A stretch of 64,000 bases of DNA, from IMG/VR virus record IMGVR_UViG_3300046692_000130, positions 30,595 to 94,594 of that record. One strand, written 5' to 3'. The position numbers were made by a program, and so were the translations under genes. The stretch comes from a virus. The notes under the pieces are model-generated. The model was not told the origin of the DNA and did not search any database. It worked only from the letters and a program-made list of their open reading frames with translations. This document shows positions 14,572 through 64,000 of the stretch, one piece after another. Within the stretch, counting starts at the first letter, position 1. Every line of letters begins with the position of its first letter.

Positions 14572-14582
14572 TTTCATATCTC

Positions 14583-14618: not shown

Positions 14619-14635
14619 CCCGTTTAGGAGCCATT

Positions 14636-14893: not shown

Positions 14894-14908
14894 GCAGCAT
14901 TTTGCTTG

Positions 14909-14938: not shown

Positions 14939-14946
14939 GAAACATT

Positions 14947-16158
14947 ATGACCAGAGCACGATTCCAAGAAGGATCGCTCCAGATCAAGGGCAAGGGCGCG
15001 AAGGCTGAGTACTTCACGCGGATCCGTGTCTATGACGACATAACTGGGAAGTCCACCCAGCCACGCATCTCGCTCGGCCTCGTCTCCAAGATGAGCAAGC
15101 GCGAAGCCCTGAAGAAGAGGGCAGAGATCATCGGAGAACGTCTTCACCAGTTGCCGAAGTCTGCGCCGACTGCCTCCATGCGTGGATCCACCACACTTGA
15201 GAACTTCTACCGTGAGCGCTTCCTGATCATGAAGTCTCATTGGAGCCAAGCCCAGCGCGACAGCTTCGCATACATCATGGACAGCTTCGTCCTGCCCCGG
15301 TTCGGCAAGTATGCCATCAGCGACATCGACAAGGTTCTGGTGCAGAGTCTTCTCAACTCTCTTGAGGAAAAGTACAGCAAGAGCACACTGACCCACGTAC
15401 GCACCAAGATGGTCGAAGTCTTCGAAGAGGCTGTCGAGCAGGACTACGCAGTAAAGAACCCCGCCGCGAAGACCAAGATCCCGGCTGGAGCGCGCCTACC
15501 AGAGCGGCCCGTCCTGACGTCTGAATGGCTCATGCAGATCATCGCCAAGGTCACCGACGCCCGGGACAAGGCAGTGTTCATGGTGGCCACCTTCTGCGCC
15601 CTACGTACCAGTGAGGCGTTCGGTCTTCCATGGGGCAACTTCCACCACGATGAAGCGACCGGCACCGGCTGGTTCCTGATCGACCAGATCGCGTACCGAG
15701 GCAAGCGCTACAAGCGCACCAAGAACGACGCCAGCAAGGCCCGGGTGCATATCAGCAAGAAGACGCTGGCGGCAATCCTCCAGTGGCAGAAGGAGTGCAA
15801 AGACACGAGTCCTGACGCTCTGATGTTCCCCAGCACGAACAAGAATGGCCGGTCGAAGAAAGGCGCGCCTATGTACCCACCTACGTGGCTCCAGAAGCGC
15901 CTACAACCGATTGCTGACTCTCTGGGTATCCCATTCAAGGTCAACTTCAGGGCGACCCGTAGGACGGCCATTACGCTGGTACAGGAGCAAGGATCCTCAC
16001 TGGCTTCGGCTCAGGGTATGGCTCGGCATGCATCGCCCAAGTCGACGTCCGAGATCTACACACAGATCGTGCCAGAGAACGTGAAGAAGGCAGTCAACGA
16101 CTATGAAGAGATGGTGTTTGCTGCGAAGCCTAAAGCCAAACTCACCCGAGTGAAATAG
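14947..16158 (+). CDS. int: Tyrosine recombinase integrase
   Basis: 403 aa. N-terminal arm-binding domain (1-70), SAM-like core-binding domain (about 75-190), catalytic domain after 190. Catalytic residues visible: Arg220 in CALRTSEAFGL, Arg338 in FRATRRTAIT (the usual His of HxxR is Arg335 here), His361 in GMARHASPK and nucleophile Tyr371 in SEIYTQ. It catalyses site-specific integration and excision of the phage. No ribosome site precedes the ATG, consistent with a leaderless message. The gene is followed by a terminator, then arm-type repeats and tRNA-Val, the expected attP context. Confidence 0.9.
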   Translation: MTRARFQEGSLQIKGKGAKAEYFTRIRVYDDITGKSTQPRISLGLVSKMSKREALKKRAEIIGERLHQLPKSAPTASMRGSTTLENFYRERFLIMKSHWSQAQRDSFAYIMDSFVLPRFGKYAISDIDKVLVQSLLNSLEEKYSKSTLTHVRTKMVEVFEEAVEQDYAVKNPAAKTKIPAGARLPERPVLTSEWLMQIIAKVTDARDKAVFMVATFCALRTSEAFGLPWGNFHHDEATGTGWFLIDQIAYRGKRYKRTKNDASKARVHISKKTLAAILQWQKECKDTSPDALMFPSTNKNGRSKKGAPMYPPTWLQKRLQPIADSLGIPFKVNFRATRRTAITLVQEQGSSLASAQGMARHASPKSTSEIYTQIVPENVKKAVNDYEEMVFAAKPKAKLTRVK

Positions 16159-16180
16159 AGCAACCAGATCTGTAGCAGAG

Positions 16181-16204
16181 GGTCACCTTCGGGTGGCCTT
16201 TTCT
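16181..16204 (+). terminator. Integrase terminator
   Basis: GGTCACC (16181-16187), UUCG-type tetraloop, GGTGGCC (16192-16198, one G-U pair), then TTTTCTG. A compact intrinsic terminator 23 bases after the integrase stop. Confidence 0.85.
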
Positions 16205-16216
16205 GTTGCCTAAATC

Positions 16217-16404
16217 GTGGCACAACAGTGGCACAATAAGGAGCACAATGGGGTACTTAGAGCACTTATAGCACTCAAAAACCCCAGTAAATACGCTATG
16301 CACCACGAATCGAACTGCCTTACAAGCAGAATTTCTGTGGCTGGAACCGCCTTAATTTGCAGTAAGATACAAAAATTGTGTGGCACAAAACGGCACAATA
16401 AGGA
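16217..16404. other. Candidate attP: arm-type repeats around a tRNA-anticodon-loop core
   Basis: Two pairs of direct repeats face each other. On the left, GTGGCACAA at 16217 and GTGGCACAATAAGGA at 16228; on the right, GTGGCACAA at 16380 and GGCACAATAAGGA at 16392. The units in each pair are 11 bp apart, about one helical turn, as expected for integrase arm sites. Between them, at 16316-16328, is TGCCTTACAAGCA, identical to 13 bp of the anticodon arm of the tRNA-Val at 16441-16453. Anticodon loops are common integration cores. The crossover site has not been shown. Confidence 0.6.
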
Positions 16405-16411
16405 AGTAAAC

Positions 16412-16488
16412 GGGCGGTTAGCTCAGTTGGTTAGAGCGGGTGCCTTACAAGCACTAGGTCGGGGGTTCGAATCCCTCACTGCCCACCA
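16412..16488 (+). tRNA. tRNA-Val (anticodon UAC), CCA encoded
   Basis: Complete cloverleaf: acceptor GGGCGGT pairing with ACTGCCC (one G-U), D arm GCTC/GAGC, anticodon arm GGTGC-CTTACAA-GCACT with anticodon TAC, T arm GGGGG-TTCGAAT-CCCTC (one G-U pair), and encoded ACCA 3' end. It reads valine codons GUA and GUG. It lies 8 bases after the right arm-type repeat of the candidate attP, so it may be a phage tRNA or part of a past or present integration site. Confidence 0.93.
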
Positions 16489-16768
16489 CAAACACCCCCG
16501 CCCCGCCCCCATGGCGACACACTGGGATCTCCTGAAAATAAAGTTCTCTGAGAGTGAAGGCTTGGGAACTGCTACGCCCGAGTGAAATAGGCGTGTCCGG
16601 TGTGATTTCTGTATCTTACTGATTTTAATTAACTTATGGGACACAAGTAGTATTCGCATGTCATTGCAAAAGAATGCACTTGTAGGAATCAAGAACGGTA
16701 TGGGATACTCGCTGCCATCTCACGGGCCGCGCTTCTAAATTGAGCTTTACAGAAGGGCACCAACTCTC
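16489..16768. other. Gene-free spacer between tRNA and Tat-protein gene
   Basis: 280 bases without a supported gene. It begins with a C-rich run, holds the second copy of the 14-bp integrase-end repeat (16577-16590), and is AT-rich from 16600 to 16660. A possible promoter is TTGTAG 16680-16685, 18 bp, GATACT 16704-16709, upstream of the next gene. The - strand frame across the tRNA is a tRNA-antisense artefact. Confidence 0.4.
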
Positions 16769-17617
16769 ATGAATCGTAGATCGTTCCTTACATCGGCAGG
16801 TGCTACTGCAGCCTGTCTTGCGACTGCTGGCGGGTCTACCTCCCGCAAGCTATTTGCCCAAGATGTTGACCCCGGCCTCCTCAATGCTTGTGTCGATAAC
16901 AACGCAATTGCTGCGGCCAACATGTACTACAACTCTGCAGGGGCCGGTGACTTCTACGGACTCGCATGGGCGAACTCAACCCTCGCACAGCATTGCAGGG
17001 ATACCGGAGTTGATGCCGCCTTCAACCAAACAGCCTTATGGCTCTCACCGGGTCAACTCAACCCAAGCCAAGTCGATGTAGCAGGGGTCACGGCCAACAT
17101 ACAACGGTTCTGCCCTGATCTTCAGGTGTCAGATATGCAGGACATCTTCAATCGGCTCCCGACTGATCCCGACTCGATTGCTTCAGGTCTTGCAACCGTG
17201 CAACAGTATGGCCTTTCCTCGATGCTAGATTCCTCCGCTGCTGGTTATTATGCGAAGGCAGGCTACCTCTCAGGTAACGGCGAACCCACTCCTATTGCAT
17301 ACAAGGGAACTCGCACTCCCTCATATCCCCGCGTCATCAACAAGGTTCATCGTCCGCAGATGAAGCCACATCTCCAGAAAGCGATGTACGCCTTTCGTCC
17401 TTTCATGACGATTACTCCAGAAGGTGGCGCACCACCTCACAAGCCGTATACCTGTGAGAGCGATAACAGGATGCAAGCGGCGTTCGGTACGTTCACATTC
17501 ATGGTCACCATAGTCTGTATGGCTGGTTGGGTTACAGGGCTGGTATGTGGCCCGGTCTTCGGTATAATCTCAGGCGTCTGGCTGATCGGTCATATCGCAG
17601 TTTGTGGCGGCGTATAA
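16769..17617 (+). CDS. Tat-exported protein with C-terminal hydrophobic Gly/Cys segment
   Basis: 282 aa. Residues 1-33 are a twin-arginine signal: RRSFL followed by an Ala/Thr-rich core ending at LFAQ. The mature part has a few cysteines and no recognised catalytic motif. The last 45 residues are hydrophobic and rich in Gly, Cys and Trp (FTFMVTIVCMAGWVTGLVCG and on), probably one or two membrane helices or a small bacteriocin-like hydrophobic domain. It sits beside the attachment region with a possible promoter of its own, typical of lysogenic-conversion genes. Function not recognised. Confidence 0.65.
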   Translation: MNRRSFLTSAGATAACLATAGGSTSRKLFAQDVDPGLLNACVDNNAIAAANMYYNSAGAGDFYGLAWANSTLAQHCRDTGVDAAFNQTALWLSPGQLNPSQVDVAGVTANIQRFCPDLQVSDMQDIFNRLPTDPDSIASGLATVQQYGLSSMLDSSAAGYYAKAGYLSGNGEPTPIAYKGTRTPSYPRVINKVHRPQMKPHLQKAMYAFRPFMTITPEGGAPPHKPYTCESDNRMQAAFGTFTFMVTIVCMAGWVTGLVCGPVFGIISGVWLIGHIAVCGGV

Positions 17618-17626
17618 GGAGAGTCT

Positions 17627-17845
17627 ATGGTCACTTTAGCGAACTTCGTAGCGCATCACGCTTTCTGGGTCAATGTGTGCATGGTCACGTTGATCATTGC
17701 CAATACCATCGGGATAACTCTGTACAAGAAGAGGCACTCCAACCAACTGCCACAGGGGAAGACAAAGGCCATCCTCATCATTGGATATGGCCTCGCTGCC
17801 GTCTTCGGTTGCTTTGTTGTAGGTGTCCTGTCGGCGCGCGGCTGA
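17627..17845 (+). CDS. Small two-helix membrane protein
   Basis: 72 aa, ATG 17627 with AAGGAG five to six bases upstream. Two membrane segments, about residues 13-32 (FWVNVCMVTLIIANTIGITL) and 48-68 (AILIIGYGLAAVFGCFVVG), flank a short basic loop. It lies 9 bases after the Tat-protein gene, so the two are co-transcribed and probably act together. It could be an immunity or anchoring partner, an inference from arrangement only. Confidence 0.6.
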   Translation: MVTLANFVAHHAFWVNVCMVTLIIANTIGITLYKKRHSNQLPQGKTKAILIIGYGLAAVFGCFVVGVLSARG

Positions 17846-17861
17846 TTTCAGGCAAGAAAAT

Positions 17862-17892
17862 GCCCCTTAGGATTGATCTCCTAAGGGGCTAA
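17862..17892. terminator. Bidirectional terminator between converging blocks
   Basis: A perfect 11-bp stem (17862-17872 with 17879-17889), 6-base loop, AAAA on the left and TAATTT on the right. It separates the rightward block ending at 17,845 from the leftward block ending at 17,918. Confidence 0.8.
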
Positions 17893-17917
17893 TTTGCGGT
17901 TATGTTTTGTGTGGAAT

Positions 17918-18127
17918 CTAGCCGACTTCTTCTCCCTCGTAAGCTCCCGGCAATACGGTGAACAAGTTCAGTCCCTTTTCTTTACGTTCAGCGTTAGCCT
18001 TAGTGACGCACGGCTCACAAACAGGTTGTCTCGTGCCGTCGATGCGAAGAGAAGGTACCAGATCAGGGTTGTAGTTGAAGACCTTACCACAGAGGACGCA
18101 GGGCGACATACAAGTCATGTACCCCAT
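17918..18127 (-). CDS. Small zinc-ribbon protein
   Basis: 69 aa from ATG 18127, two bases after the stop of the next upstream gene. CVLCGK and, about 25 residues later, CEPCV form two CxxC knuckles, a single structural zinc site. The Lys/Glu-rich C-terminal part is probably helical. It is the last gene of the leftward block, before the bidirectional terminator. Such proteins often bind nucleic acid or a host protein; the target is not evident. Confidence 0.6.
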   Translation of the reverse strand: MGYMTCMSPCVLCGKVFNYNPDLVPSLRIDGTRQPVCEPCVTKANAERKEKGLNLFTVLPGAYEGEEVG

Positions 18128-18129
18128 GG

Positions 18130-18384
18130 CTACGCCGCTACCTTCATCTGCTTTGAGATCCTGATGTGATCGCTGCCTCGTAACCAGTTCTCGCGAACGT
18201 CGCCGTTGGTGACCGTCTTGCCGTCTACCACGAGGTAGGTATCTCCGTCTGGGCCAAGAGAGTTGAGCCAGTCGGCGGTCGTCACGCCACTGCAGAAGCC
18301 CTTGTTCGCCCAGCGCGTTTGGCAACCGCCGCTACCGTTGACACCCTGCCCATCGTGTACAGCTTCGACCATGGTTGTCTTCAT
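18130..18384 (-). CDS. Small unknown protein with WLRGxxHIRIS tail
   Basis: 84 aa; ATGA overlap with hicB upstream. The N-terminal half is Gly/Cys-bearing (GSGGCQTRWANKGFC). The C-terminus ends NWLRGSDHIRIS plus a short basic tail. The same motif closes the 86-aa protein at 60,152-60,412, so the two are probably paralogues. No known function. It is co-transcribed with hicAB. Confidence 0.5.
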   Translation of the reverse strand: MKTTMVEAVHDGQGVNGSGGCQTRWANKGFCSGVTTADWLNSLGPDGDTYLVVDGKTVTNGDVRENWLRGSDHIRISKQMKVAA

Positions 18385-18599
18385 GCCGCCACCTCGATCA
18401 CTGATGCTTGAGACTTAGCTGCTGGGATCGGCTCACCGCTCCGCTTGGCTTCCTCGATCCAGATCTCGATTCCCTCACGCATGTTCTGCTGGGCCTCTTC
18501 CAGAGTCTCACCGCTGGCCACGACCACCGGAAGGTCTGGAACGTACCCGCCCCAACTTCCATCCGCAGCTTGCTCGAATACTGCCGTGTAGTTCGCCAT
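18381..18599 (-). CDS. hicB: HicB antitoxin
   Basis: 72 aa from ATG 18599. The segment YTAVFEQAADGSWGGYVPDLPVVVASGETLEEAQQNM is the HicB partial RNase-H-like fold that occupies the HicA active site. The C-terminal part is short (EVAA end) and no obvious DNA-binding HTH or ribbon-helix-helix is visible, so autoregulation by this protein is uncertain. The start overlaps the hicA stop by one base, giving the usual toxin-antitoxin coupling. Confidence 0.85.
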   Translation of the reverse strand: MANYTAVFEQAADGSWGGYVPDLPVVVASGETLEEAQQNMREGIEIWIEEAKRSGEPIPAAKSQASVIEVAA

Positions 18600-18787
18600 T
18601 ACCGTAACCCCGCTTGCTTCATGATACTGTTTGCCGTCCCGGGTGGCACGTCCGAACTTAGCTTGTGCGCGGCCACTACGACGATGCCCGACTTGGTCAC
18701 ATGCTTGTAGACCCGATGACTTCCCTTCGTGCGTTCTAACTGCCATCCATCCTCCTCCAAGAGCTTGATGATGTCACGGTATTTCAC
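18599..18787 (-). CDS. hicA: HicA mRNA interferase toxin
   Basis: 62 aa from GTG 18787. It has the dsRBD-like HicA fold pattern with the catalytic KGSHRVYKH motif (His about residue 23) and the later VVVAAHKLSSDVPPGTANSIMKQAG. HicA cleaves mRNA independently of ribosomes and is held inactive by HicB. A member of the shared promoter family lies upstream (18,817-18,845). On a temperate phage the pair may stabilise the prophage or block competing phages. Confidence 0.88.
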   Translation of the reverse strand: MKYRDIIKLLEEDGWQLERTKGSHRVYKHVTKSGIVVVAAHKLSSDVPPGTANSIMKQAGLR

Positions 18788-18816
18788 TTGGTGTCCCTCA
18801 CTGGCTTACATCCATT

Positions 18817-18845
18817 ACTCTACGGAACCATGTGGCAGAAGTCAA
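18817..18845 (-). promoter_or_regulatory. hicAB promoter
   Basis: TTGACT (18845-18840), 17 bp, TAGAGT (18822-18817). The word GGATGTAAG follows three to four bases after the -10, as in other members. Upstream is AGCGTAACAAGCAAAATAA, the shared A-rich element. Confidence 0.8.
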
Positions 18846-18905
18846 CAATTATTTTGCTTGTTACGCTAATTTTCTTTCTTGTCTGCATGTCTGCACAAAC
18901 ACAAA

Positions 18906-18927
18906 CGCCCCGGTCAAAGCCGAGGCG
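18906..18927 (-). terminator. Terminator of the 18,952-19,659 gene
   Basis: 8-bp stem CGCCTCGG/CCGGGGCG (one G-U pair) with a 6-base loop, followed on the - strand by TTTGTGTTTG. Confidence 0.75.
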
Positions 18928-18951
18928 AATGCGAGAGGGACTGACGAAGGT

Positions 18952-19659
18952 TTACGCTACATTCTTCCAACGTGGGCTGTAGCGACCGTAGAGCTTCTTG
19001 CGACCGGCTGGGCCAAGCTTACGCAGGGCGACGATGTTCTTCACGATCTCGGCCCGTTCGAATGAATCCTTACGACCGCCGTCCAAGTAACGAGCGATCT
19101 GGTCGTCGAGGATCCCGGCGAACTCCGTAGGACGAACATAGTGAACAGCATCGAGCAACCAGCCATGGCGGCGATTGACTTCGGCCTTGACAACCTTGTT
19201 CCGCGCCACAGAGCAGCTAGGGCAGAAGAGGCGTTCAGCTTTGTAGGCTGTGATAGCGGTGCCACACTCAGGGTTTGAGCAGACGGCAAGGTTGACGCCA
19301 AGCTGGCGAAGGATATCCAGATCGATCTTCCATGCTGAGTCGCCCATAGCTACCGACTTGAAGACGTTGTAGCAGCGGTTCTGCAGAGAGTGGGTAGCAG
19401 CCTTACCGGCGTTCTGCTTGGTGTCGTACTTGCTGATGGGCATACCGCCCCAGAGAGCGATGAAGTTATCCTCGACCACAACCCCGGGCAGAGAGACGGA
19501 GAACCATTCAGGGTGCTTGTCGCTGAAGGACACATACACCGGGTACTCACCGGCCTCGACCTCGACGTCCTGCCACCATGCAGCGCACTCGTAGCTGGCG
19601 TTGCGGAAGATTGCCTTCTCAGAAACCTTGAATGTGCCGACCTGAATGCTCTGGTTCAT
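18952..19659 (-). CDS. Unknown zinc-binding protein, 235 aa
   Basis: Residues 1-115 are beta-rich with many a Trp and Phe (ASYECAAWWQDVEVEAGEYPVYVSF). A four-cysteine site follows at about 128-152: CSNPEC then CPSCS. The C-terminal 80 residues are helical and basic (GRKKLYGRYSPRW). It has its own terminator. I do not recognise the family. The zinc site and basic C-terminus would suit nucleic-acid binding. Confidence 0.55.
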   Translation of the reverse strand: MNQSIQVGTFKVSEKAIFRNASYECAAWWQDVEVEAGEYPVYVSFSDKHPEWFSVSLPGVVVEDNFIALWGGMPISKYDTKQNAGKAATHSLQNRCYNVFKSVAMGDSAWKIDLDILRQLGVNLAVCSNPECGTAITAYKAERLFCPSCSVARNKVVKAEVNRRHGWLLDAVHYVRPTEFAGILDDQIARYLDGGRKDSFERAEIVKNIVALRKLGPAGRKKLYGRYSPRWKNVA

Positions 19660-19698
19660 TGCCTTATCCCCTTAGAAATAGTGTACTCAATCCTGCGT

Positions 19699-19953
19699 TT
19701 ACTTGATCAACGCCTCGACTGCCTCAACATCGACGGCCCAAGTTGTCTGCGTCCAAGTTCCTGAATCTGTGGTTACGTCGCCATGGACTATGACGATGCC
19801 CTTCTGTGCGAGTGACGACATCACACCTGCTAGTTGTCTCGGGTGTTCGACCGCCCCACGGCACTCCTGCACCAAGCCGAAGTCGTGGCCGTTGCCCTTG
19901 CTGCTCTTGAACAGCGCTACCAGAACCTTCTTCTCCATCGGTGTGATCGTCAT
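19699..19953 (-). CDS. Small winged-helix DNA-binding protein
   Basis: 84 aa, ATG 19953, preceded by GGAGATTACGAG. EKKVLVALFKSSKGNGHDFGLVQEC, then QLAGVMSSLAQKGIVIVHG and a beta hairpin with WTQTTWAVD, fits a MarR/phage-type winged helix. It is likely a regulator. It is transcribed from a family promoter 25 bases upstream, together with the 235-aa protein. Confidence 0.55.
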   Translation of the reverse strand: MTITPMEKKVLVALFKSSKGNGHDFGLVQECRGAVEHPRQLAGVMSSLAQKGIVIVHGDVTTDSGTWTQTTWAVDVEAVEALIK

Positions 19954-19977
19954 CTCGTAATCTCCTTTACATTTTCT

Positions 19978-20006
19978 AAGTTACAGAGGGATTCGGATCG
20001 TGTCAA
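19978..20006 (-). promoter_or_regulatory. Leftward family promoter
   Basis: TTGACA (20006-20001), 17 bp, TAACTT (19983-19978), followed by AATGTAA. Upstream to 20024 is AAGCATAAAAACTA, the conserved A-rich element. Confidence 0.8.
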
Positions 20007-42237: not shown

Positions 42238-43230
42238 TTAGTTGGTCTCCAGATAGTCGTTGCTGACGATCTTCAGATGGACGCGACCGAGGCGCGGAAC
42301 GTAGCGCTCACGGACAGGCTTCACAACGATGCCCTCGCGTATTTGGTTGATGGGGTTGGCCCCGCCGACGAGTGTGTTGCCATCGGCCAGACTGATGAGA
42401 AGGTCGTAGTCGAACGCGCCCTCAAACACAATCGGAGGCAGAAGTCCGTAAGGCTCAAACATCCGACGCATTTCGTCGAAGTCAGTCCACTGCTGGCCGA
42501 TCATCAGATCGAATGCAACGAACTTGTATTCGCCGTTGACTGCGCCATATCGCAGCGTCTGCACATTACCAAACACTTCGCCGTATAGGACAGCGCCCGG
42601 GAACGCAATGCAGAAAGCTTCGATCTGGGGATTCTGGGCCAAAGCCTTCCACCACCAGTTGTCGCCCTGCTCGACCCATTGGTTCTTGGATCCGACGTAC
42701 ATCTTCTGCTCAATTGGGTGGTACACGTAGCGCGCATTCGTGCCATGGATCTTCTCAGTGGCTACTACGGTCTCGCCCGGGTTGAACATGCGACTGTAGC
42801 GCAGCATGTTGTCTACGTCATACTTTGGCGCGTAGATGTTGGGTGGAGGAATATCGTCACGTACGTGCTCATTAGAGCCGCCAGACGGCGCTGGTTCGTA
42901 GTGCGTGACCCCGAAGTACTCGGCAACGTCGTCGCCCTCTACAGCGCCCTCTGGTGCCTTCAGCAACAGGCCCATGGACACGACGCCGCGAAGCTTTTTG
43001 ACTCTGATACGTTTGTTGCCTTTGAGGAATTCGAACTCAGGCCGGGAGGTATCCACGATGGAGTCAGGCTGCACATATGCAGCAAGCTCATCGTTCTGGA
43101 ACTGGCCCTTCTGGACACAGCAGGTGAAGCCGAAGATGTTCGCTATTTCAAGCTTGTCGGCGTTGGGGTGGGGTTCGATTACGACACGAACTACTTCTAC
43201 TTTGTGGGAATTGGGTACAGCTTCGTTCAG
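42238..43230 (-). CDS. RNA ligase (DRB0094/Rnl5-like) with N-terminal OB domain
   Basis: 330 aa if initiation is CTG 43230, with AAAGGA six bases upstream; upstream GTG and TTG in frame have no suitable site. The N-terminal HKVEVVRVVIEPHPNADKLEIANI segment is an OB/tRNA-binding-like domain. The nucleotidyltransferase core has motif I KIHGTNAR, then VLYGEVFG (III) and EGIVVKP (IV). It seals RNA breaks through an AMP-lysine intermediate. CTG overlaps the stop of a 29-codon upstream frame. Confidence 0.78.
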   Translation of the reverse strand: MNEAVPNSHKVEVVRVVIEPHPNADKLEIANIFGFTCCVQKGQFQNDELAAYVQPDSIVDTSRPEFEFLKGNKRIRVKKLRGVVSMGLLLKAPEGAVEGDDVAEYFGVTHYEPAPSGGSNEHVRDDIPPPNIYAPKYDVDNMLRYSRMFNPGETVVATEKIHGTNARYVYHPIEQKMYVGSKNQWVEQGDNWWWKALAQNPQIEAFCIAFPGAVLYGEVFGNVQTLRYGAVNGEYKFVAFDLMIGQQWTDFDEMRRMFEPYGLLPPIVFEGAFDYDLLISLADGNTLVGGANPINQIREGIVVKPVRERYVPRLGRVHLKIVSNDYLETN

Positions 43231-43351
43231 GCAGGATCCTTTCGACAAGGCTCCGCGCAGCCTGAGAGACACGCGTCGAAACGCATGTGCAATGGCGCGC
43301 ACGGATGCACATTCATGGTTGGGGAATCAGTTGTAAGTGGGTATGAAATCT

Positions 43352-43380
43352 ATAGTACGACACTTTCGCGCCGTTTGCAA
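43352..43380 (-). promoter_or_regulatory. Promoter of the RNA ligase operon
   Basis: TTGCAA (43380-43375), 17 bp, TACTAT (43357-43352), after AAATCAGCAAATAATCTA. It yields a leader of about 115 bases before the CTG start. Confidence 0.8.
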
Positions 43381-43430
43381 TAGATTATTTGCTGATTTCT
43401 GTGGAAAACTTTTGCCGGGGAGGGCTGGGT

Positions 43431-43862
43431 CTAACGGGGTGAGTTGAGGCGCGCCAGACCAGAGAGATCCACTGGGGGAGCGGACACGGCCTGACGGCAC
43501 CTACTGCCATGGACGGGGTGCTTGATGGTTTGTATCGTGCTGGGTCTGATTGGGAGCAGCGCTTCCCTCAGTGTCGGGATCTTGACATCCACAGACACCG
43601 AGGCAGAATAAGACGTCGTAGGCCGTGTCTGCGTTCTACGCTTCTCACGTCTCGCGCCTTCGGCCCCGCGCTCACCAAACAGGCCCAGCAAGCGTTGTAG
43701 GTTCATCAGGGCGTTCTTCCAGCCCCTGACGTCGCTTAGGGTACTTGGAACGACAAAGATCGCATTGTTCGGGAAACGCCAGACCTCATGCTTACGCTGC
43801 CGGTCGATCACAGCCTCATGCTGCTTCAGTATTTCCCGAACCTGCTTCTCATGCCTATCCAC
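43431..43862 (-). CDS. HicA-like fold protein with unrelated C-terminal tail
   Basis: 143 aa, ATG 43862. Residues 1-60 (QVREILKQHEAVIDRQRKHEVWRFPNNAIFVVPST) match the HicA/YcfA-like dsRBD fold, with His at the KHE site rather than the GSH of true HicA. The C-terminal 80 residues are Arg/Pro/Ser-rich and probably disordered. There is no HicB next to it. It may bind RNA without cutting it. Confidence 0.5.
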   Translation of the reverse strand: MDRHEKQVREILKQHEAVIDRQRKHEVWRFPNNAIFVVPSTLSDVRGWKNALMNLQRLLGLFGERGAEGARREKRRTQTRPTTSYSASVSVDVKIPTLREALLPIRPSTIQTIKHPVHGSRCRQAVSAPPVDLSGLARLNSPR

Positions 43863-44244
43863 GGTTCCCGACCTCCTCCAGCGATTTTTTGCCGTTGATC
43901 AAATCCAAGAACTTGTTGAGGTTTTGGGCGGCAACAGGATGCAACAGGCCCAAGACCTTCTCTGCCCTATCGTTCTTCAGATAGTAGTCAAATTCGCCGT
44001 TATGAATAGAGCAGCCGATGACTGCAAGGCGATTCTTGAACCAGTTCATCAGGTGCTCTTCCCGGGCCTGTACGCGCTCACGGATCAGCCGGTCGACTTC
44101 CTTCATGATCTCGCGGTTAGTCTCGATCTCATCGATCATTGCCTGTAGGCCGTTGCGGTCGACTGGGATCTCTGGGAACCGGTGCGACCTCATGATCGAC
44201 AGACGGTGTTTGCTCGTTGCTATTACTTCGTCCATTACTGGCAC
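43855..44244 (-). CDS. Unknown helical protein, 129 aa
   Basis: GTG 44244, with AAGGAG seven bases upstream. A long helix (GLQAMIDEIETNREIMKEVDRLIRERV) then LMNWFKNRLAVIGCSIHNGEF. It overlaps the HicA-like gene. No recognised motif. Confidence 0.5.
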   Translation of the reverse strand: MPVMDEVIATSKHRLSIMRSHRFPEIPVDRNGLQAMIDEIETNREIMKEVDRLIRERVQAREEHLMNWFKNRLAVIGCSIHNGEFDYYLKNDRAEKVLGLLHPVAAQNLNKFLDLINGKKSLEEVGNRG

Positions 44245-44284
44245 GTCATCGCTCCTTCTTAGGTTGTGCTTCGACTTCAGTTCT

Positions 44285-45454
44285 TCAGGCAGCTATAGCA
44301 TTCTGCGTCTGACTGGCGAACTCTGGCTCTTCAGACGTGGGCCTGACCATCGACCAGAGTGCCTTTGTCGTGTTCTTGCCATCAAGGATCATGAAGAGCA
44401 GACCACGCGCTTCAGGGAACTGGTTGGCGAACTCAACGAACTTCCTGCGCTCGATGTTTGCCCTCTCTGTAAGCCCGGGGAATGCCTTGCGCTGCTCACG
44501 GTCGAGACCAGCGAGTGGCAAGTCTCCAGTGAAGCCACCGAAAATCTGAACAGCGCCGTCGTAGATCGCCCTGCGCCGGTTATCAAACTCGACCGCCGTG
44601 TCCAAAGCCCACTGCTGGAAGTCCTGAGGCAGACCGTCAAGCTTGTCGGCCAGCGTCCCACCTTCACTCAGCAACTGCCAGATCGAGAGCGGAGTCCACT
44701 CTGTCACGATGCGATGCATCTTGACGTATGTATTGAACTTGATCTTGACCTTGAGCGGTGACTGGCCCGGGCGAAGCCATGTGGCGATATAGCCCTCTGC
44801 GTTGTCGCTATCCTCTTGCGTAGCGTCATAGAGAGACTTGCTGTGCAGTGGCTTGGCGTACTGCAGGTTGTTCAGGCGCGCCAGCTTCTCCACACGCTCT
44901 GGATCCATCTCTTCACCCGTCTCAATGTTGACGAGAGTGAGCAGCACGAGACCTTCCCAGTCATAGCGGACGACGACACGGTTGTCGTTGTAGACGATCT
45001 CCACCATGGGCGTCCAGCCGGTCGGCCAGATCGTAGCGCCATGGCTCTGCAGATAGTCGGTAGCCCACTCTGCCTGTTCAGACTCGAAGGATCCACGCGT
45101 AGCTACTGCCATCTCGCCATCAGTGGCGCGGTAGACCACACCGAGTGAGCCATCGAACTTCGTAGACATGATCGGCTTCTCTGTGGGCAGATTCTCCAAC
45201 AGAGTCTCAGGGTGACGTTCGTCGTTGAAGTTCCAGAACTTTGCGAACGGGCGCGCAACGATCTCAAGGGTATCGAGGTTGTAGATCAGACCACGGCACT
45301 GATTGGTGCAGTCATCGAATGATTGGAGGATAGTAGCAAGCTTGGAGTAGTTCAGAATTCCAAGTGGCTCAGTTGGGTGATGACGAAGGTTGAGGGTTTT
45401 ACCGCGTAGGTGGCAGTGGAATAAATCATTGTCAATCAAGTCAAACAATTTCAT
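44285..45454 (-). CDS. T4 Rnl1-family RNA ligase
   Basis: 389 aa, ATG 45454. N-terminal CRGLIYNLDTLEIVARPFAKFWNF and motif I STKFDGSLG (Lys near residue 99) are typical of T4 RNA ligase 1; motif IV EGYIATW and motif V KVKIKF also present. The helical C-terminal domain (ERRKFVEFANQF) is the tRNA-binding region. With polynucleotide kinase-phosphatase in the adjacent gene, it repairs tRNA cut by host anticodon nucleases. Confidence 0.88.
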   Translation of the reverse strand: MKLFDLIDNDLFHCHLRGKTLNLRHHPTEPLGILNYSKLATILQSFDDCTNQCRGLIYNLDTLEIVARPFAKFWNFNDERHPETLLENLPTEKPIMSTKFDGSLGVVYRATDGEMAVATRGSFESEQAEWATDYLQSHGATIWPTGWTPMVEIVYNDNRVVVRYDWEGLVLLTLVNIETGEEMDPERVEKLARLNNLQYAKPLHSKSLYDATQEDSDNAEGYIATWLRPGQSPLKVKIKFNTYVKMHRIVTEWTPLSIWQLLSEGGTLADKLDGLPQDFQQWALDTAVEFDNRRRAIYDGAVQIFGGFTGDLPLAGLDREQRKAFPGLTERANIERRKFVEFANQFPEARGLLFMILDGKNTTKALWSMVRPTSEEPEFASQTQNAIAA

Positions 45455-45455
45455 T

Positions 45456-46385
45456 TTAGAACTCCTCTATCTGGCCCCGTACTGCTATGACACGTACTCC
45501 GTTTTGCTTCCACATCCTGACGACCGATGGCCGGTCATCGAGGACAATGTTGATCTGGTCTTTAGGCAGATCGTTCAAGATCTCTGCCTTCACTTCAACG
45601 TCGTTTCGCTTATCGCCTCCCCTTCGCATGAAGATGTAGTCGTATTCCAGTTGTGCGGTGTAACGTAACCAGTCCATCGTTTCGAACTGGTAGGTATCGG
45701 GTCTCGCGGATACCACGCAAATTGTGTGAGTCTTCGACAACTCACGAACCCAGCGGACAACGAAGTCCACGGGCTTATCTAGGTGCATCAGGGAAAAATA
45801 CAGATCCCAGTTCTTCTTGGCCGTGCCTGTGCCGCCACATGCATTACATTCGTCCTTGAACAGCGCGCCATGTGGCGAACACTGTACGCATTCACCATTG
45901 ACATGGTGTTCGCGATGAGAGCCATCAGCCAGTGTGCCGTCGATGTCGACCAGAGCGATAGGCTTCTCACCGAAGTCGATCATCCCGGCCCTTAGGGCCA
46001 TTCGATGAATGATCGCCTTGCCGACTGGCCTCTCGCGCTTACCGTCGCGGTCTATGCAAGTCTGCAGTGTCGAGCCAGTCCTGACCATTTCGAACGTGGC
46101 GTTGTGATCGGTTGCCTGATGACGCCACATGTCCTCATGCGACTTCAGCAGATTCGTGTCGTCGACGATCACGTTGTGCTGATGCTTGATCAACACACTC
46201 GCAATGGCTTTCTCTACATCGACGACAATCCTCTCGCGCTTGCCAGTCCACTTCCCACCGAACAGCATCGCTCGGAGATCATCGCGATTGACCCGGCCAG
46301 CATTGCCGTGCCTCTGTGCTATCTCTCGCGCCCGGGTCGACTTCCCTGCTCCCGGGAGATCTCGAAGCATAATCAGCTTGCTCAT
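45456..46385 (-). CDS. pnkp: Polynucleotide kinase-3'-phosphatase (T4 Pnkp-like)
   Basis: 309 aa. Kinase Walker A LPGAGKST (10-17), VNRDDLRAML and DDTNL complete the 5'-kinase; the phosphatase begins at VDIDGTLAD, followed by SARPDTYQ and a DDRPSVVRMW end. A zinc-finger insert with CVQC and CNACGG lies inside the phosphatase domain, as in some phage homologues. It prepares 2',3'-cyclic phosphate/5'-OH ends for the RNA ligase encoded one base downstream. Confidence 0.9.
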   Translation of the reverse strand: MSKLIMLRDLPGAGKSTRAREIAQRHGNAGRVNRDDLRAMLFGGKWTGKRERIVVDVEKAIASVLIKHQHNVIVDDTNLLKSHEDMWRHQATDHNATFEMVRTGSTLQTCIDRDGKRERPVGKAIIHRMALRAGMIDFGEKPIALVDIDGTLADGSHREHHVNGECVQCSPHGALFKDECNACGGTGTAKKNWDLYFSLMHLDKPVDFVVRWVRELSKTHTICVVSARPDTYQFETMDWLRYTAQLEYDYIFMRRGGDKRNDVEVKAEILNDLPKDQINIVLDDRPSVVRMWKQNGVRVIAVRGQIEEF

Positions 46386-46672
46386 GCGTACTGGTGCTCC
46401 TTGATGACGCTGCCCAGACCGTAGGTGACGAGATTGTTGCGTCGGCGACGTCCTACAACCTGTTCGTCTGAGATCGCCCTGAAGCCGACCACAGCATGGT
46501 GACGGGGAGCATTACGGCGAGGAGCTTCAGTCGCCATGACGTCGTGCTGGTTCTGGCACTCTATGCAATGAATTGCGTTTGGCTTGGCTGTGAGGCGCTT
46601 TGCGCCAATCGGATTGCTGCAACTGACGCAATTCCGTTCCGTGGTGCTCTGTTGGATAGCTACGTTATTCAT
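46382..46672 (-). CDS. TraR/DksA-type zinc-finger protein
   Basis: 96 aa, ATG 46672. CVSCSNPIGAKRLTAKP then CIECQ gives the C4 zinc finger of DksA/TraR proteins, which enter the RNA polymerase secondary channel. The usual coiled-coil tip is short or absent, so mimicry of ppGpp action is uncertain. First gene after the family promoter at 46,722-46,751. Confidence 0.7.
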   Translation of the reverse strand: MNNVAIQQSTTERNCVSCSNPIGAKRLTAKPNAIHCIECQNQHDVMATEAPRRNAPRHHAVVGFRAISDEQVVGRRRRNNLVTYGLGSVIKEHQYA

Positions 46673-46721
46673 TGGCCCGTTTGATCCCTTTCGTCACTCT
46701 TTAGTACTTGTTACTGTCAGC

Positions 46722-46751
46722 ATAATAACTATTGTATCGTCTGAGAGTCAA
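46722..46751 (-). promoter_or_regulatory. Promoter of the TraR-Pnkp-Rnl operon
   Basis: TTGACT (46751-46746), 18 bp, TATTAT (46727-46722). AGACGATACAATAG lies within the spacer, a variant of the boundary dyad word. Confidence 0.6.
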
Positions 46752-46765
46752 GAAAAATGTTGCAC

Positions 46766-46812
46766 TTATTTGCAGTCAGATAGCTGCATTTATTTGCAGT
46801 CAGATAGCTGCA
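46766..46812 (-). repeat. Tandem 23-bp repeat at the end of nadV
   Basis: Two copies (46766-46788, 46790-46812), period 24, differing only at the junction base. Each contains TTGCAG...CTGCAA-type arms (6 bp, the left arm of the second copy starting A) around CTATCTGA. The right-hand copy holds the last codons and stop of nadV. It may act as a double hairpin after the operon. Confidence 0.8.
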
Positions 46813-48194
46813 AGTTCGCGTATCTCAGAGAGATACTGGAACCTAGTCAGATAACCATCGTTGAAAACAGTTTCAAGCTGGTCGCCCCACCTGTCTGCCC
46901 CCGGAACAGTCACATAACCAATACCGTTGACGTAAATCAGCGACTGCCGACCGCGCAATGAAGACTTGCCCGGGTCAGTGATCGGATCCTTGAAGACCTC
47001 GACCTCTTCGCCATTGATGACGGCTGCAGAGCACTTGATCGCAACCTTCTGAGTGTCGCGGTTAACCTTCTGGAGCAGACCGGCCCCCATGCCTACCACG
47101 ACGTTCTCTGTGCTCCATCCTGCAGCGGTGACGGCTTCCATCAGACTGCGAATGCTCTGGAGGTTCATGCCATCGCTCCAGATGATCCCTACGACCGGCG
47201 AGAGCACACGGTAGCCCTTGGAGTTCAGTCTGTAGCCAAAGCGGTGAGCAAGGGCCATCAGAAGCTCAGGAATGATCTTCACAAAGTCGCCAGAGTCTGG
47301 CCGAATTACAACCTTGCCCTTGCGCTTGAGGATCTGATCACGGAAGGTGCCGCCGATGATGTTGCTCGTGAAGTTGTAGACGTCGTAGCTGTCAGCAACC
47401 AGCGAGATGATCCCGGTTGGGAACTGCTTCAGGGCGTGACCCACCGCGTCTGCCTCATGGAACCTGCCCCAGCTTGTCGTTGTCGAATGCTCGGTCGCCG
47501 GTACGGAGTAACCAGAGATCTTCCCAGCGCCATAGAACTGGTTCAGCAATGCGTTCGCTGGCTTCGTATCCGTGCCAAGGAAGTTGATCAGATGAGCAGC
47601 ACCGCCGATGGCAGCTTGCTCGTCTGACGTCACGCCACGATAACCCATGTCGTGTAACTGGAACGGCAGAGCGTCCAGAGTGTCAGCGGTCTTCACAAGG
47701 TATTCCTTGAGCACCATCTTGACCTCACGCGAGAGCGTAGCGACGGCAGAGCCATACCACATGTGCTGCAGCTTGGTCTCGGCCCAGCCGGTCAGGAACG
47801 CGCACTCTGGATCCGTATTGCGAATCGTCATCATGACGTTTGAGACAGGCACGGGAATGCCTTCACGCACGGCCTTGATCTCAAGTGGCAGACGACCACC
47901 ATAGACGTTGACGATCCTCATCCACTTCTTTGTGGGATAGTTGAAGTTGCTGCCAGCGAAGTGTTCACGCGCTTCATCAGCGGCAGCGCTGACATCACCT
48001 GCAGTGACGACAGAGCCTTCAAAGTTTGCCTTCAGGGCGTACTGCAGACCGAACAGTGTGCTCGTGCTGAACTCGCCGCCCCGGGCAGAGTAATAGTCGT
48101 ATAGCTCGGTCGTCCCGGGCTTGTAGAAGTACGGATGTGAATCCTTGTAGCTATCCGTCTTTTGAAGTGTTGAGAGATGCAGTGGACGTGCCAT
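46800..48194 (-). CDS. nadV: Nicotinamide phosphoribosyltransferase (NAMPT/NadV)
   Basis: 464 aa from ATG 48194 (TAATG overlap with the adenylyltransferase gene). Family features: LQKTDSYKDSHPYFYKPGTTELYDYYSARGG start, RPDSGDFVKIIP, GIIWSDGMNLQSIRSL, and a C-terminal VFKDPITDPGKSSLRGRQSL. It makes NMN from nicotinamide and phosphoribosyl pyrophosphate. With the downstream NMN adenylyltransferase it forms a two-step route to NAD+, matching the phage NAD+ reconstitution pathway (NARP2). Confidence 0.92.
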   Translation of the reverse strand: MARPLHLSTLQKTDSYKDSHPYFYKPGTTELYDYYSARGGEFSTSTLFGLQYALKANFEGSVVTAGDVSAAADEAREHFAGSNFNYPTKKWMRIVNVYGGRLPLEIKAVREGIPVPVSNVMMTIRNTDPECAFLTGWAETKLQHMWYGSAVATLSREVKMVLKEYLVKTADTLDALPFQLHDMGYRGVTSDEQAAIGGAAHLINFLGTDTKPANALLNQFYGAGKISGYSVPATEHSTTTSWGRFHEADAVGHALKQFPTGIISLVADSYDVYNFTSNIIGGTFRDQILKRKGKVVIRPDSGDFVKIIPELLMALAHRFGYRLNSKGYRVLSPVVGIIWSDGMNLQSIRSLMEAVTAAGWSTENVVVGMGAGLLQKVNRDTQKVAIKCSAAVINGEEVEVFKDPITDPGKSSLRGRQSLIYVNGIGYVTVPGADRWGDQLETVFNDGYLTRFQYLSEIRELAAI

Positions 48195-49117
48195 TAGTTG
48201 GTGAGGATTCCCTTCGCGATGAGATGAAGCTTCAGCATGTCGAACAGGGGTTGGTGAGCAGGTTCGATGTTCTGGCGTGAGATTGCATCGACGTGGAACC
48301 ATCGCACTGCGCTCACGTCATCGTTTGCTTCGGCTGCGAGTGTTTCCTTTGCCCAACCGAGGAACATCACCGTCTTGATGACTTCAGGTGTGTTCTGGTA
48401 GCGCCAGTCCTTGATCAACGAGGATCCAACGTATTCGACACAGCGCAACTTGACGTTCGACTCTTCTTCAGCCTCGCGTATTGCATCAGTCTCGTAATCG
48501 AGGCTGGTACCTTCGGCGTGACCACCAACGAAGCGCCAGTTCTTCTCTCCCGGCTTCTGTGCCATCAGCAACGAGACGCCACGCTGACTACAGAATGCGA
48601 TTGCGACGTCGACTGTGGGGATGACACGAGAGAAGCTGTTGAGCATGCCATGGATCACGCCAGCGCGGAACGCTTCAGAGTTTGGCATCATGTTCATGAC
48701 CTTCTCGCGAAGCTTGGTCGCGGAGATGTCGGCGCTCACTTCGACCTGTATCTCTTCCGTCTTGTGTCTGCCCATGTAGTCAGCAATGAAGCTGTCGCGC
48801 CCACCGTAGAGCGTCACGGAGGCGAACTGGGCGATTTCATGAATCTTGTTGTCGAGATCCTTCGACCACTCCTCATTCGTCTTGCGATCAGTGATGGGTA
48901 GAAGAATGAACTCGGGGTATTGCTCCTGAATCATGCGACGACGCGCTTCGAAGGACAGCGGGTCATGCTTAGTTGGAGGAGTGGCTGGGCATCCGATGAA
49001 GACGATGACGCGATTGCCGTGGTTCTGCTTGACCGTCCTCAACAGTGCGATATGACCTTCAGTCAGAAAGTGTGTCTGGAAGCGTCCGACAACGACGCCA
49101 TAGCTTGGAGTGCTCAC
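48194..49117 (-). CDS. Bifunctional NMN adenylyltransferase-Nudix hydrolase
   Basis: 307 aa from GTG 49117 with AAAGGA upstream. N-terminal domain: GVVVGRFQTHFLTEGH (nucleotidyltransferase GH motif) and ISATKLR (the ISSTxxR site). C-terminal Nudix box: GGHAEGTS...REAEEES, slightly degenerate (spacing and final residues differ). It makes NAD+ from NMN and ATP; the Nudix half may hydrolyse ADP-ribose or NADH. Coupled to nadV by a one-base overlap. Confidence 0.88.
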   Translation of the reverse strand: MSTPSYGVVVGRFQTHFLTEGHIALLRTVKQNHGNRVIVFIGCPATPPTKHDPLSFEARRRMIQEQYPEFILLPITDRKTNEEWSKDLDNKIHEIAQFASVTLYGGRDSFIADYMGRHKTEEIQVEVSADISATKLREKVMNMMPNSEAFRAGVIHGMLNSFSRVIPTVDVAIAFCSQRGVSLLMAQKPGEKNWRFVGGHAEGTSLDYETDAIREAEEESNVKLRCVEYVGSSLIKDWRYQNTPEVIKTVMFLGWAKETLAAEANDDVSAVRWFHVDAISRQNIEPAHQPLFDMLKLHLIAKGILTN

Positions 49118-61121: not shown

Positions 61122-62036
61122 CTAAGCGGCGATGAAGTATGGTCGGGATGCGAAGCCGAACTTGGGATCCTCATCGGACGGCCTCACGGTCGCCTTGAAC
61201 GTGATTGTTGTACCGCGCTCACTCGGAGCACCAGAGGGCAGCGTCGACCACACCATGAAGCCTTCAGTGGCCTTGACGAGCATCTTGGTGACCATGCCGA
61301 ATGCAGTCTCACGCGTATCCACCTTGACGATGGTGCCGGTGACGGTGATACGACCTGAGGGGCAGGGGGCAGCAGCTTCACGCTCTGCTTCGCGCTGGGC
61401 CTTGATCTCAGGCATGCGCTTGACCTTCTCTACGAGAGATCCGAGGTAGCTCTGGGCGCGCTCACTGATGCTGCCGAACTTGACCAGCTTCAGGACGATG
61501 TCGTTGACGATGCGCGCTGGCTCCTGATCGCGATACTGCTGGCGCATGATGCGAAGCTCTTCCTCGGTGGGGTTCTCTCTGCCCACGAAGAGCGCTGGCG
61601 CGTTCTGGTAGTCCTGAGAGATCTGCCATGCATCGGCCAGACCAATCTCCGCGAGTAGCGCCTGTGCCTTGGCCTTACCAGCCTTGGCTTCGAGTGCCTT
61701 GCTCACTTCCTTACGGAACGTGTTGATGTCGGCGTGGGCCATGTCCATCTTCTCGGCGCAGTCCTCACCCGTACGGATGTAGGTGTTGCTGGGCGCATGG
61801 TGGAAGAGGATCGTGTACATGGCGTTCGCGTTCCCGCAGACGTGGCAGTTGCCGCCATGGGAGTGTGTGGAGTACGCGCCACCTGTCTGGTACATGTGGT
61901 CTTGGATCCGCTTGCGCTGTGCAGCGATGAACATTGAAGCTCCGAGATCTCCGTCCAGCTTGACGTGCTCGTAGGCAACGAACTGGTAGTCCTGAGGGTT
62001 GATCGCTGATGGCCGGTGAATGTCGGTGCGCTTCAT
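61122..62036 (-). CDS. Phage protein with zinc knuckle and C-terminal OB-like domain
   Basis: 304 aa, ATG 62036 with AGGAGATC leader. GGNCHVCGNANAMYTILFH and GEDCAEKM (about residues 61-96) make a probable zinc site. Residues 220-300 (GRITVTGTIVKVDTRETAFG; GTTITFKATVR) look like an OB fold. It is the first gene leftward of the control region. Nucleic-acid binding is likely but unproven. Confidence 0.6.
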   Translation of the reverse strand: MKRTDIHRPSAINPQDYQFVAYEHVKLDGDLGASMFIAAQRKRIQDHMYQTGGAYSTHSHGGNCHVCGNANAMYTILFHHAPSNTYIRTGEDCAEKMDMAHADINTFRKEVSKALEAKAGKAKAQALLAEIGLADAWQISQDYQNAPALFVGRENPTEEELRIMRQQYRDQEPARIVNDIVLKLVKFGSISERAQSYLGSLVEKVKRMPEIKAQREAEREAAAPCPSGRITVTGTIVKVDTRETAFGMVTKMLVKATEGFMVWSTLPSGAPSERGTTITFKATVRPSDEDPKFGFASRPYFIAA

Positions 62037-62302: not shown

Positions 62303-62402
62303 CAAAAGAAAACCCCCTCGGCACGTATGCACGAAGAGGTGTAACGAATGAACGTAAAGTTTGTAGTTCTCGGAGATAACTAACCATGGCTGGTTAGCAA
62401 TC
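62303..62402 (-). ncRNA. Candidate small RNA with anti-Shine-Dalgarno segment
   Basis: From a promoter at 62,409-62,437 to a hairpin CCUCUU/GAGGGG followed by UUUUCUUUU. Near the 5' end are a CUAACC/GGUUAG hairpin (62380-62397) and UUAUCUCCG (62379-62371), complementary to the CGGAGAUAA ribosome leaders of several genes here. No convincing coding frame. Confidence 0.45.
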
Positions 62403-62408
62403 GAATAC

Positions 62409-62437
62409 AGATTAGCAAGCCGCGTACACGCAGTCAA
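62409..62437 (-). promoter_or_regulatory. Promoter of the candidate small RNA
   Basis: TTGACT (62437-62432), 17 bp, TAATCT (62414-62409). Family-like, without the GAATGTAAG word. Confidence 0.7.
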
Positions 62438-62472
62438 TAGAATTCGTCATGCATGCAATAGTTCTTTTGACG

Positions 62473-62521
62473 GGGTGGGGGTCGAAAAAATCGATCCTGA
62501 AAAATGCCCACCCTATTTTTT
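62473..62521 (+). terminator. Rightward terminator
   Basis: GGGTGGG (62473-62479) with CCCACCC (62507-62513), large internal A-rich loop, then TATTTTTTTT. It may serve the + strand zinc gene. Confidence 0.6.
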
Positions 62522-62544
62522 TCAGCCAGCGCCGGGGAAAGTTG

Positions 62545-62871
62545 TCAGGAACTTTGTTGGAAAGTTTGTCGAGATCTCTGGAGCAAATTGTCTGGCGTTG
62601 TCTGTCGAATTGCTGGCCAAGTTTGTTGGAAGTTGTCGCGCAGATCTGCAGCCAGTTGCGTCCGAACTTCTCTGGTAATTTCACCGAGAGTTCGTGTGCC
62701 ATCGTGACCGGCGCGCCTATCGATTGCTCGGGCCAGTTGCCGGGTGATGTTCAATTCACTTCCCTGTTCACGTTGCACGAACATGCTGACTGAATGAACA
62801 CGACGACCGGCTGCGCTTTGCTCTGCTCCATGTAACTCGGTCTGGTCGACAAGCTCGTGACGCTGGGCCAT
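62545..62871 (-). CDS. Possible Gln/Arg-rich protein, 108 aa
   Basis: ATG 62871 in an open frame that reaches 62973. Helical Gln-rich C-terminus (QLAADLRDNFQQTW; RQTFQQSS). No good ribosome site or domain; two 45-base near-repeats underlie it, so it may not be coding. Confidence 0.3.
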   Translation of the reverse strand: MAQRHELVDQTELHGAEQSAAGRRVHSVSMFVQREQGSELNITRQLARAIDRRAGHDGTRTLGEITREVRTQLAADLRDNFQQTWPAIRQTTPDNLLQRSRQTFQQSS

Positions 62872-62973
62872 GACATTACTCTCGGCGCGGATCTCGATCT
62901 GGTTGTCGGTCGACGTCGCGATGCGTTGCGCGCCCAATCGCGTGACCGTTCCAAAGACTGTGAGGCAGAACAT

Positions 62974-63430
62974 AGCGAAGCGTGTTGAGACCTATGCTGG
63001 CCAGTGCCATGGATCTTCGCCCGGGATCTCTACCGGCATTCGCCAGCGTTGCTAGTCTGTGGGTGATTCTGTGATCGACGATCCTTATACGCCAGCGCCG
63101 GGTAAAGCGGCACCGGCCCGAGGCTTATAGGGATCTCTCGGGAAAGCATGCTTATACACCGCTTATAAATGGGTGTTACAGACTCGTTACAGCCTCGTCC
63201 ACCCTTATTTCGCTAAGTTGTTGATATTCAATGGCTTACGACTATACCGGTACCGTGTCCGTTGCGTCTGGCCCGATTTTGGTAAGTCTTTGATAATCAT
63301 AGACTTAGGCGATATCGGCGTAAGTCTAGCGCTATCAATACTTTGCCTGTAAGTATCAGAAAACAAAAGCATTGCAAAATCTCCGAATTCACAAAAGCGC
63401 TAAATACCTGTAAAGCATTGAAACATCTAA
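62974..63430. other. Gene-free control region with inverted repeats
   Basis: No supported gene. CTTATA occurs at 63084, 63124, 63150 and 63164. A perfect dyad TAAGTCT/AGACTTA spans 63283-63307 with a TTGATAATCAT centre, and a further half-site TAAGTCTA is at 63321. AT-rich from 63200 to 63430. Compatible with a replication origin or operator. Confidence 0.45.
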
Positions 63431-64000
63431 ACTTAGCTCTGGCCGTTGCTCTGGCCCGTCCGTGTAGCGCTTGGCGCGTCCGTCTGGCCCGTGTGGCCGT
63501 CTGGCGTCCGTTATGTCTGGCCGTCTGGCCCGTTGCTCTGGCCCGTCTGGCGTCGAATCTTGGCCCGTCTGGCCGTCCGTTTACGTCTGGCGCTGGCCCG
63601 TTGCTGGCCGTCTGGCGCTGCAGGTATGCGCGTCTACAGACGCCATGGTCTGGCGCGATCTCTGGCCCGTGTAGCGCTGCAGGTATGCGCGTCTGTACGC
63701 TGGCCCGTCTGGCGCGTATGCGTCGACGCTGGCGCGTATCTTGGCGCGATCTCTGGCCCGTCTATGTCTGGCCGTCCGTTATGTCTGGCGCGATCTCTGG
63801 CGCGTCTTTGTTTGCATCTATTGAAACGGTAAACGCATGCGAGACTTGCCCGTCAAGTAAAAACTTTGCTGGCGCTGGCGTATATGCGTCGACGCTGTCC
63901 CGTTGCTGGCCCGTGTGGCGTCCGTGTGGCGTCCGTTATGCTCTGGCCCGTCCGTCTACGCTGGCGCGTCTCTGGCCCGTTGTGGCGATCTCTGGCCCGT
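63431..64000. repeat. Short-word repeat array running off the window
   Basis: Made from a few words: CTGGCCCGT (12 exact copies between 63451 and 64000), CTGGCGCG, CTGGCCGTC, GCGATCTCTGGC. A longer 21-bp unit occurs at 63615-63635 and 63674-63694, and TATGCGTCGACGCTG at two sites. No believable protein on either strand. Confidence 0.7.
63828..63856 (-). promoter_or_regulatory. Possible leftward promoter inside the repeat array
   Basis: TTGACG (63856-63851), 17 bp, TTTACC (63833-63828), preceded by CAGCAAAGTTTTTAC like the 59,590 promoter. The -10 is weak. Confidence 0.45.

Follow-up and report, generated by a model that had tools for sequence, protein, structure and literature searches.

A 'dialect island' in the genome of a soil phage: two non-coding arms and the genes between them share one small vocabulary of short DNA words

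What is an array of short, shuffled words doing at the very end of a phage sequence, and how far does it reach? The array closes a stretch of 64,000 nucleotides (hereafter the window), positions 30595-94594 of the 94,594-bp virus record IMGVR_UViG_3300046692_000130, so that the end of the window is also the end of the record. This single metagenomic record, the basis for all that is said of the island described below, belongs to a tailed soil phage related to phages of Acidobacteriota, and it encodes a terminase, portal, tyrosine integrase, RecA, DnaB-like primase-helicase, ribonucleotide reductase and family A DNA polymerase. The closest phage records to the polymerase are Tunturi_4 (33%) and Tunturi_3 (30%), phages isolated on the Acidobacteriota host Tunturiibacter (PMC11924767). 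Elsewhere in the genome, a tRNA-Val (window 16412-16488) directly downstream of the tyrosine integrase gene (14947-16158) marks a possible attachment site; tRNA-Asn is found at record 15426 and tRNA-Trp at 15566. Window 42238-48302 brings together a NAMPT-like nicotinamide phosphoribosyltransferase, a PNKP-like kinase-phosphatase and two RNA ligases, a set for RNA repair that may also serve NAD salvage.

The initial annotation counted twelve exact copies of CTGGCCCGT in window 63431-64000, and the count is confirmed (Table 1); the whole window holds 13 copies on the plus strand and none on the minus strand. Repeated 9-mers in this interval number 203 vs 4.1±2.7 in 500 dinucleotide shuffles, in which the top 9-mer reaches at most 3 copies vs 12 observed, and outside the island the best 570-bp window of the record has 19 repeated 9-mers. 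The word array is real. Its words are CTGGCCCGT, CTGGCGCG(AT), CTGGCCGT, CGTCCGT and GCGATCTCTGG, among others, with TGGC on the plus strand once per ~16 bp. They had been said to fill almost all of the 570 bp; the array is indeed dense, but is interrupted by ~62 bp of ordinary, AT-richer sequence. Word spacings are irregular (5-72 bp), the spacers are themselves repetitive, and Tandem Repeats Finder (TRF) returned weak, conflicting periods of 8-44 (64-77% matches in the longer rows), besides short local runs. A CRISPR array was rejected on the spacings and repetitive spacers, and a tandem repeat or satellite on the TRF result. An Rfam scan of the window matched only a tRNA elsewhere and nothing in the array, and open reading frames across it look like by-products of its A-poverty. 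The annotation's negative statements (no regular period, no protein, no likeness to CRISPR, satellites, scattered Chi-like sites or a gene) all hold.

The annotation placed the array at the window edge and proposed inspecting the sequence beyond. The array does reach position 64000, but it also continues across the record junction, and a second arm with the same words on the opposite strand lies ~3 kb further on. The array in the window is the left arm of a ~4.3-kb 'dialect island'. The arms are non-coding, inward-facing and strand-pure (AT skew of three left-arm blocks -0.34 to -0.70, of the right arm ~+0.5), and they bracket two promoter-gene-terminator units. The two promoter-like sites sit in a 46-bp repeat (80% identical) and the two terminators lie in a 56-bp repeat (93% identical); a search of the window and of record 1-20000 found no further copy of the promoter consensus. 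Vocabulary edges are sharp, near record 94.0k and 3.77k. The left flank lacks the vocabulary and holds two weak resemblances to AAGTTATTGATTCTA (near window 63213-63229 and 63282-63298; by eye, with more than 3 mismatches, below scan tolerance), and the left-neighbour gene is at background for the dialect (z 2.0 and 0.2). Subterminal repeats of DNA transposons and iterons of plasmid origins are short motifs with irregular spacing, oppositely oriented at transposon ends. The island shares these traits, but has no fixed unit and no transposase- or initiator-like family among its three genes, in which a defence-family scan also found no match; possible transposon ends were inspected by eye only.

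The last 230 bases of the record repeat its first 230 with one mismatch, so the map either closes at ~94.36 kb or has terminally redundant ends; the overlap may reflect circularity or assembly breakage at a repeat. The record ends within the array itself, as might be expected of an assembly or sequencing artefact. We consider an artefact extremely unlikely, however, because the overlap repeats an identical ~230-bp word order together with ~60 bp of non-array sequence at both ends, and because comparable regions occur in separately assembled relatives, including the deposited complete genomes of two isolates; moreover, the genes between the arms encode coherent proteins.

Table 1. Coordinates of the island, its surroundings and related elements (window, positions in the 64,000-nt stretch; record, positions in the virus record)
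Feature	Coordinates	Strand	Remarks
Left-neighbour gene	window 61122..62036	-	304 aa; without a Pfam family; nearest sizeable gene on the island's left side
Left flank	window 62303..63436		apparently non-coding
Left arm, window part	window 63437..64000	+	with record 231-352 totals ~686 bp
CTGGCCCGT copies	window 63451, 63484, 63525, 63538, 63593, 63662	+	exact matches
CTGGCCCGT copies	window 63700, 63753, 63906, 63943, 63972, 63992	+	exact matches
Terminal overlap	window 63771..64000		equals record 1-230, one mismatch; includes non-array sequence
Word-free interruption	window 63807..63868		within terminal overlap; read directly
Left arm, full	record 94030-94594 + 231-352	+	across the record junction
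Terminator after gene 1	record 375-350	-	predicted
Gene 1	record 1092-400	-	DUF7227/GP88
Promoter-like site upstream of gene 1	record 1362-1332	-	predicted
Terminator after gene 2	record 1470-1443	-	predicted
Gene 2	record 1798-1523	-	no family matched
Gene 3	record 2817-1852	-	321 aa, Cys-rich; no family and no phage homologue found
Promoter-like site upstream of gene 3	record 2888-2858	-	predicted
Right arm	record 3270-3765	-	left-arm words
AAGTTATTGATTCTA-like element	record 3850; also Tunturi_3, L029, G008 and Tunturi_4 early region		sites with 0-1 mismatches carry weight

An order-4 Markov model built from the right arm predicts the 9-mer repeats of the left arm (276 observed vs 251±23), with 12-mers at 137 observed vs 97±21 predicted, whereas orders 1-2 fail on left-arm repeats. 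Words are shared between the arms as they are within them, at all word lengths and with no distance trend (LR/sqrt(LL*RR)=1.01; near/far=1.13). Colinear homology between the arms is absent (score 107 vs 108±22 in order-4 simulations), and an inverted duplication of one arm was rejected on this ground; structured RNA or DNA and known non-coding RNA were rejected because folding is no stronger than in shuffles (z +1.6, +0.1 and -0.45 for RNA, +0.4 for DNA) and an Rfam search of the island gave no match. The vocabulary is a 5-mer-level language of many words, not copies of one site, and it is uniform over the island irrespective of distance. With no colinear copy, distance dependence, excess folding or regular period, readings as a fixed site, CRISPR, tandem repeat or local slippage fit poorly.

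One rival reading is ordinary cryptic simplicity, arising through local replication slippage. Cryptically simple DNA consists of scrambled short motifs without a period, and the island is like it in its local word enrichment, its over-represented scrambled motifs and its reach into coding DNA. The island is much stronger, however, shows no distance dependence, and keeps one common vocabulary in arms ~3 kb apart on opposite strands. Simulated slippage gives near/far ratios of 112-184 and almost no arm-to-arm sharing, against the observed 1.13 and full sharing, which makes ordinary cryptic simplicity a very improbable explanation.

The dialect does not stop at the arms. Synonymous codons were shuffled within each gene, which preserves protein and codon usage, and against this background the three island genes have 84 repeated 9-mers vs 14.2±4.9 and 184 repeated 8-mers vs 49.2±8.8, whereas 8-mers of four control gene sets give z of ~0.9 to 3.8. 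Their enriched words are arm words (GCCAG/CTGGC, CGTCCGT, GCGCTGG, GTCGACG), found on both strands, and CTGGC/GCCAG ranks with the top enriched 5-mers. The arm model gives genes 1 and 3 a raised likelihood (z 5.3 and 8.7 on the plus strand, 6.7 and 5.2 on the minus strand) vs z of 2.9 or less in two control genes. Island coding sequences use the arm vocabulary, more weakly than the arms do. This coding result rests on the chosen-gene test; a genome-wide synonymous-shuffle scan and an ORF-based non-coding scan are both rough, because overlapping chance ORFs were left in.

Do the words answer to a protein? The arms could be an array for a fast-coevolving DNA-binding protein of phage or host, serving partition, regulation or nucleoprotein structure, with many bound copies of a short core, for instance CTGGC(N0-2)CGT, flanking an accessory module, protein and core both being phage-specific. 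In the 1,181 bp of the arms, taken in the same orientation, TGGC occurs 73 times and GCCA 5 times, and 73 of the 77 TGG run on into C; this strand-pure core, the inward-facing arms around two transcription units, the prominence of CTGGC/GCCAG in the genes and, in a relative, two gene-flanking arrays built on a GCGGCCC core all speak for such an array. An array for a single protein would have one core and free spacers, but here the spacers hold more repeated words: with the TGGC core removed, 8-mers still number 90 vs 7.8±4.5, among them words unrelated to the core (GTCCGT, CGTTGC, GCGATCT). Spacing is irregular, helical phasing of the TGGC core is weak at best, words occur on both strands within genes, and a candidate protein is lacking. 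We hold a protein-coevolved array to be doubtful but credible. The annotation's simpler suggestions, a partition site or a decoy for a DNA-binding protein, are weak because each needs one fixed site, whereas this is a many-word language that does not stop at gene borders. In cluster A mycobacteriophages, stoperators (e.g. PMC9283540) are one site spread genome-wide and bound by the immunity repressor. Compared by that description, the island is like them in having many short asymmetric sites in a phage genome and unlike them in packing many different words into one place and reaching genes.

Among the polymerase relatives whose records extend downstream of the DNA polymerase gene, several carry, at 3-11 kb from it, a long stretch that is non-coding or wordy (Tunturi_3, Tunturi_4, L036 (GCGGCCCG), L018, L023, L024, L017, L029, L020 and L031), and L019 and L022 have no such stretch there; genes in relatives were called by simple ORF rules. 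Vocabularies differ between these stretches and their strength varies, some being weak. The long region of Tunturi_3 and Tunturi_4, 8-11 kb downstream of the homologous polymerase, has repeated words of its own like the island, but it differs in vocabulary, has no annotated genes inside and is less repetitive; the terms noncoding and non-coding are absent from the main text of PMC11924767. The L036 record has two arrays in one vocabulary ~7 kb apart, and the genes between them are enriched up to ~8-fold in it. Under a crude ORF filter, 25 of 145 non-coding windows in the relatives' regions reach z>=6; other viral loci, 0.92 Mb in all, give 1 of 23 and have far fewer long non-coding stretches. 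Two further records looked wordy too, the unrelated contig L054 and L306, a DUF7227 neighbour.

A AAGTTATTGATTCTA-like element, possibly an operator or promoter element, occurs in or beside several wordy stretches and in early regulatory gaps. Shuffled 90-kb genomes give 3-6 matches each at scan tolerance, so only sites with 0-1 mismatches carry weight (Table 1). Scrambled-word non-coding stretches also lie near DUF7227 genes of unrelated viruses, at L306 ~1300-1650 (AACCGGAC...) and L307 ~4400-4550 (CACTCCAC...). The minus strand of Tunturi_4 (L012) has four Twister-P5 ribozyme matches in or beside early-gene gaps (8350-8410, 9935-9992, 12166-12227 and 13093-13150; 48-62 bits, above the Rfam gathering score), and L072, the record of L036, has a permuted tmRNA match at 10627-10819 (79 bits, Rfam RF04321).

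The shared place bears on the annotation's proposal of an origin, packaging site or terminal region, in which the words would be initiator, terminase or primase sites. A record end inside the array with a 230-bp overlap, strand-switched arms and, in the early half, a long non-coding region with similarly placed counterparts in relatives would suit this. Support for an origin is nevertheless wanting, as cumulative GC-skew extremes lie off the island, though skew here largely follows gene strand; in addition, a one-base difference separates the terminal copies, the words reach into genes and change from relative to relative, and no initiator gene was recognised adjoining the island. Such a region is improbable. 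Overall, the annotation's interpretation is partly supported.

The vocabulary itself was sought elsewhere. Exact-pattern scans of viral and genome collections gave no other sequence with it among the matches listed, and most pattern matches in other viruses were pentapeptide or collagen-like coding repeats, rejected as an explanation since the arms are non-coding. A host- or plasmid-derived vocabulary was likewise rejected: blastn against phages and plasmids found no match, and the genome scan gave 79 scattered single matches. Gene 3, gene 1 and the left-neighbour gene also served as queries for homologues, and nothing recovered with them carried the dialect. These searches bear on whether the ~4.3 kb was imported as a module from a replicon whose entire genome bears this oligonucleotide signature. 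The sharp edges would fit, as would the promoter found nowhere else in the sequence searched and gene 1, which none of the polymerase relatives searched carries and which is closest (59% aa) to Tunturi_1/2, with their different backbone. Yet no donor appeared among the matches listed, no known genome is so extreme, and the relatives hold private vocabularies at a similar place, so that import would need one donor each; we judge it unlikely.

We tentatively infer that the island is produced by replication-linked short-patch rewriting. It would be rewritten where it stands as the phage replicates or recombines, through numerous short template switches at ~4-5-base microhomologies between island copies. 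Switching would conserve 5-mer statistics while scrambling order, let the text drift to a small word pool particular to the lineage, and extend into coding DNA where the protein tolerates change. On this model the words themselves would do little or nothing that is sequence-specific, and the working parts would be the island genes, promoters and terminators, plus the nearby AAGTTATTGATTCTA element. Simulated global switching with 4-base microhomology gives shared, order-4-like text with cross-arm statistics qualitatively similar to those observed; copying of ~12-base patches was rejected, as simulations left too many 12-mers. Counting against rewriting, no simulation matched the observed repetitiveness (few settings were explored), the almost perfectly strand-pure arms call for extra assumptions, the island boundaries are sharp, coding-sequence rewriting this intense is costly, and we know of no such process in a phage. 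Because simulations fall below the observed strength, rewriting stays tentative, with the protein-coevolved array and then the imported module given less credence.

The firm result is the island-wide DNA-level language, on which the rewriting, protein-array and import readings agree; what is solid is the feature, not the mechanism. In some phages, and we offer this only as a possibility, continual rewriting or some form of maintenance may keep a genome segment, arms and synonymous sites included, in a small private DNA-level vocabulary by a mechanism not yet described; the vocabulary would be lineage-specific and the chromosomal place similar. Tunturi_3 and Tunturi_4 are isolated, their hosts are cultured and they have comparable regions, so experiments are possible. 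Here a phage segment, genes and intergenic DNA together, is written in a small private word set, and relatives use other words at a similar place. If a copying or mutational process is responsible, the dialect would be a natural readout of phage DNA copying and a new force on codon choice; if selection is, a single recognition system would govern the whole segment, and every phage would have an alphabet of its own. In both cases the island is a warning that synonymous choice and local word statistics in phage genomes can have a non-translational cause.
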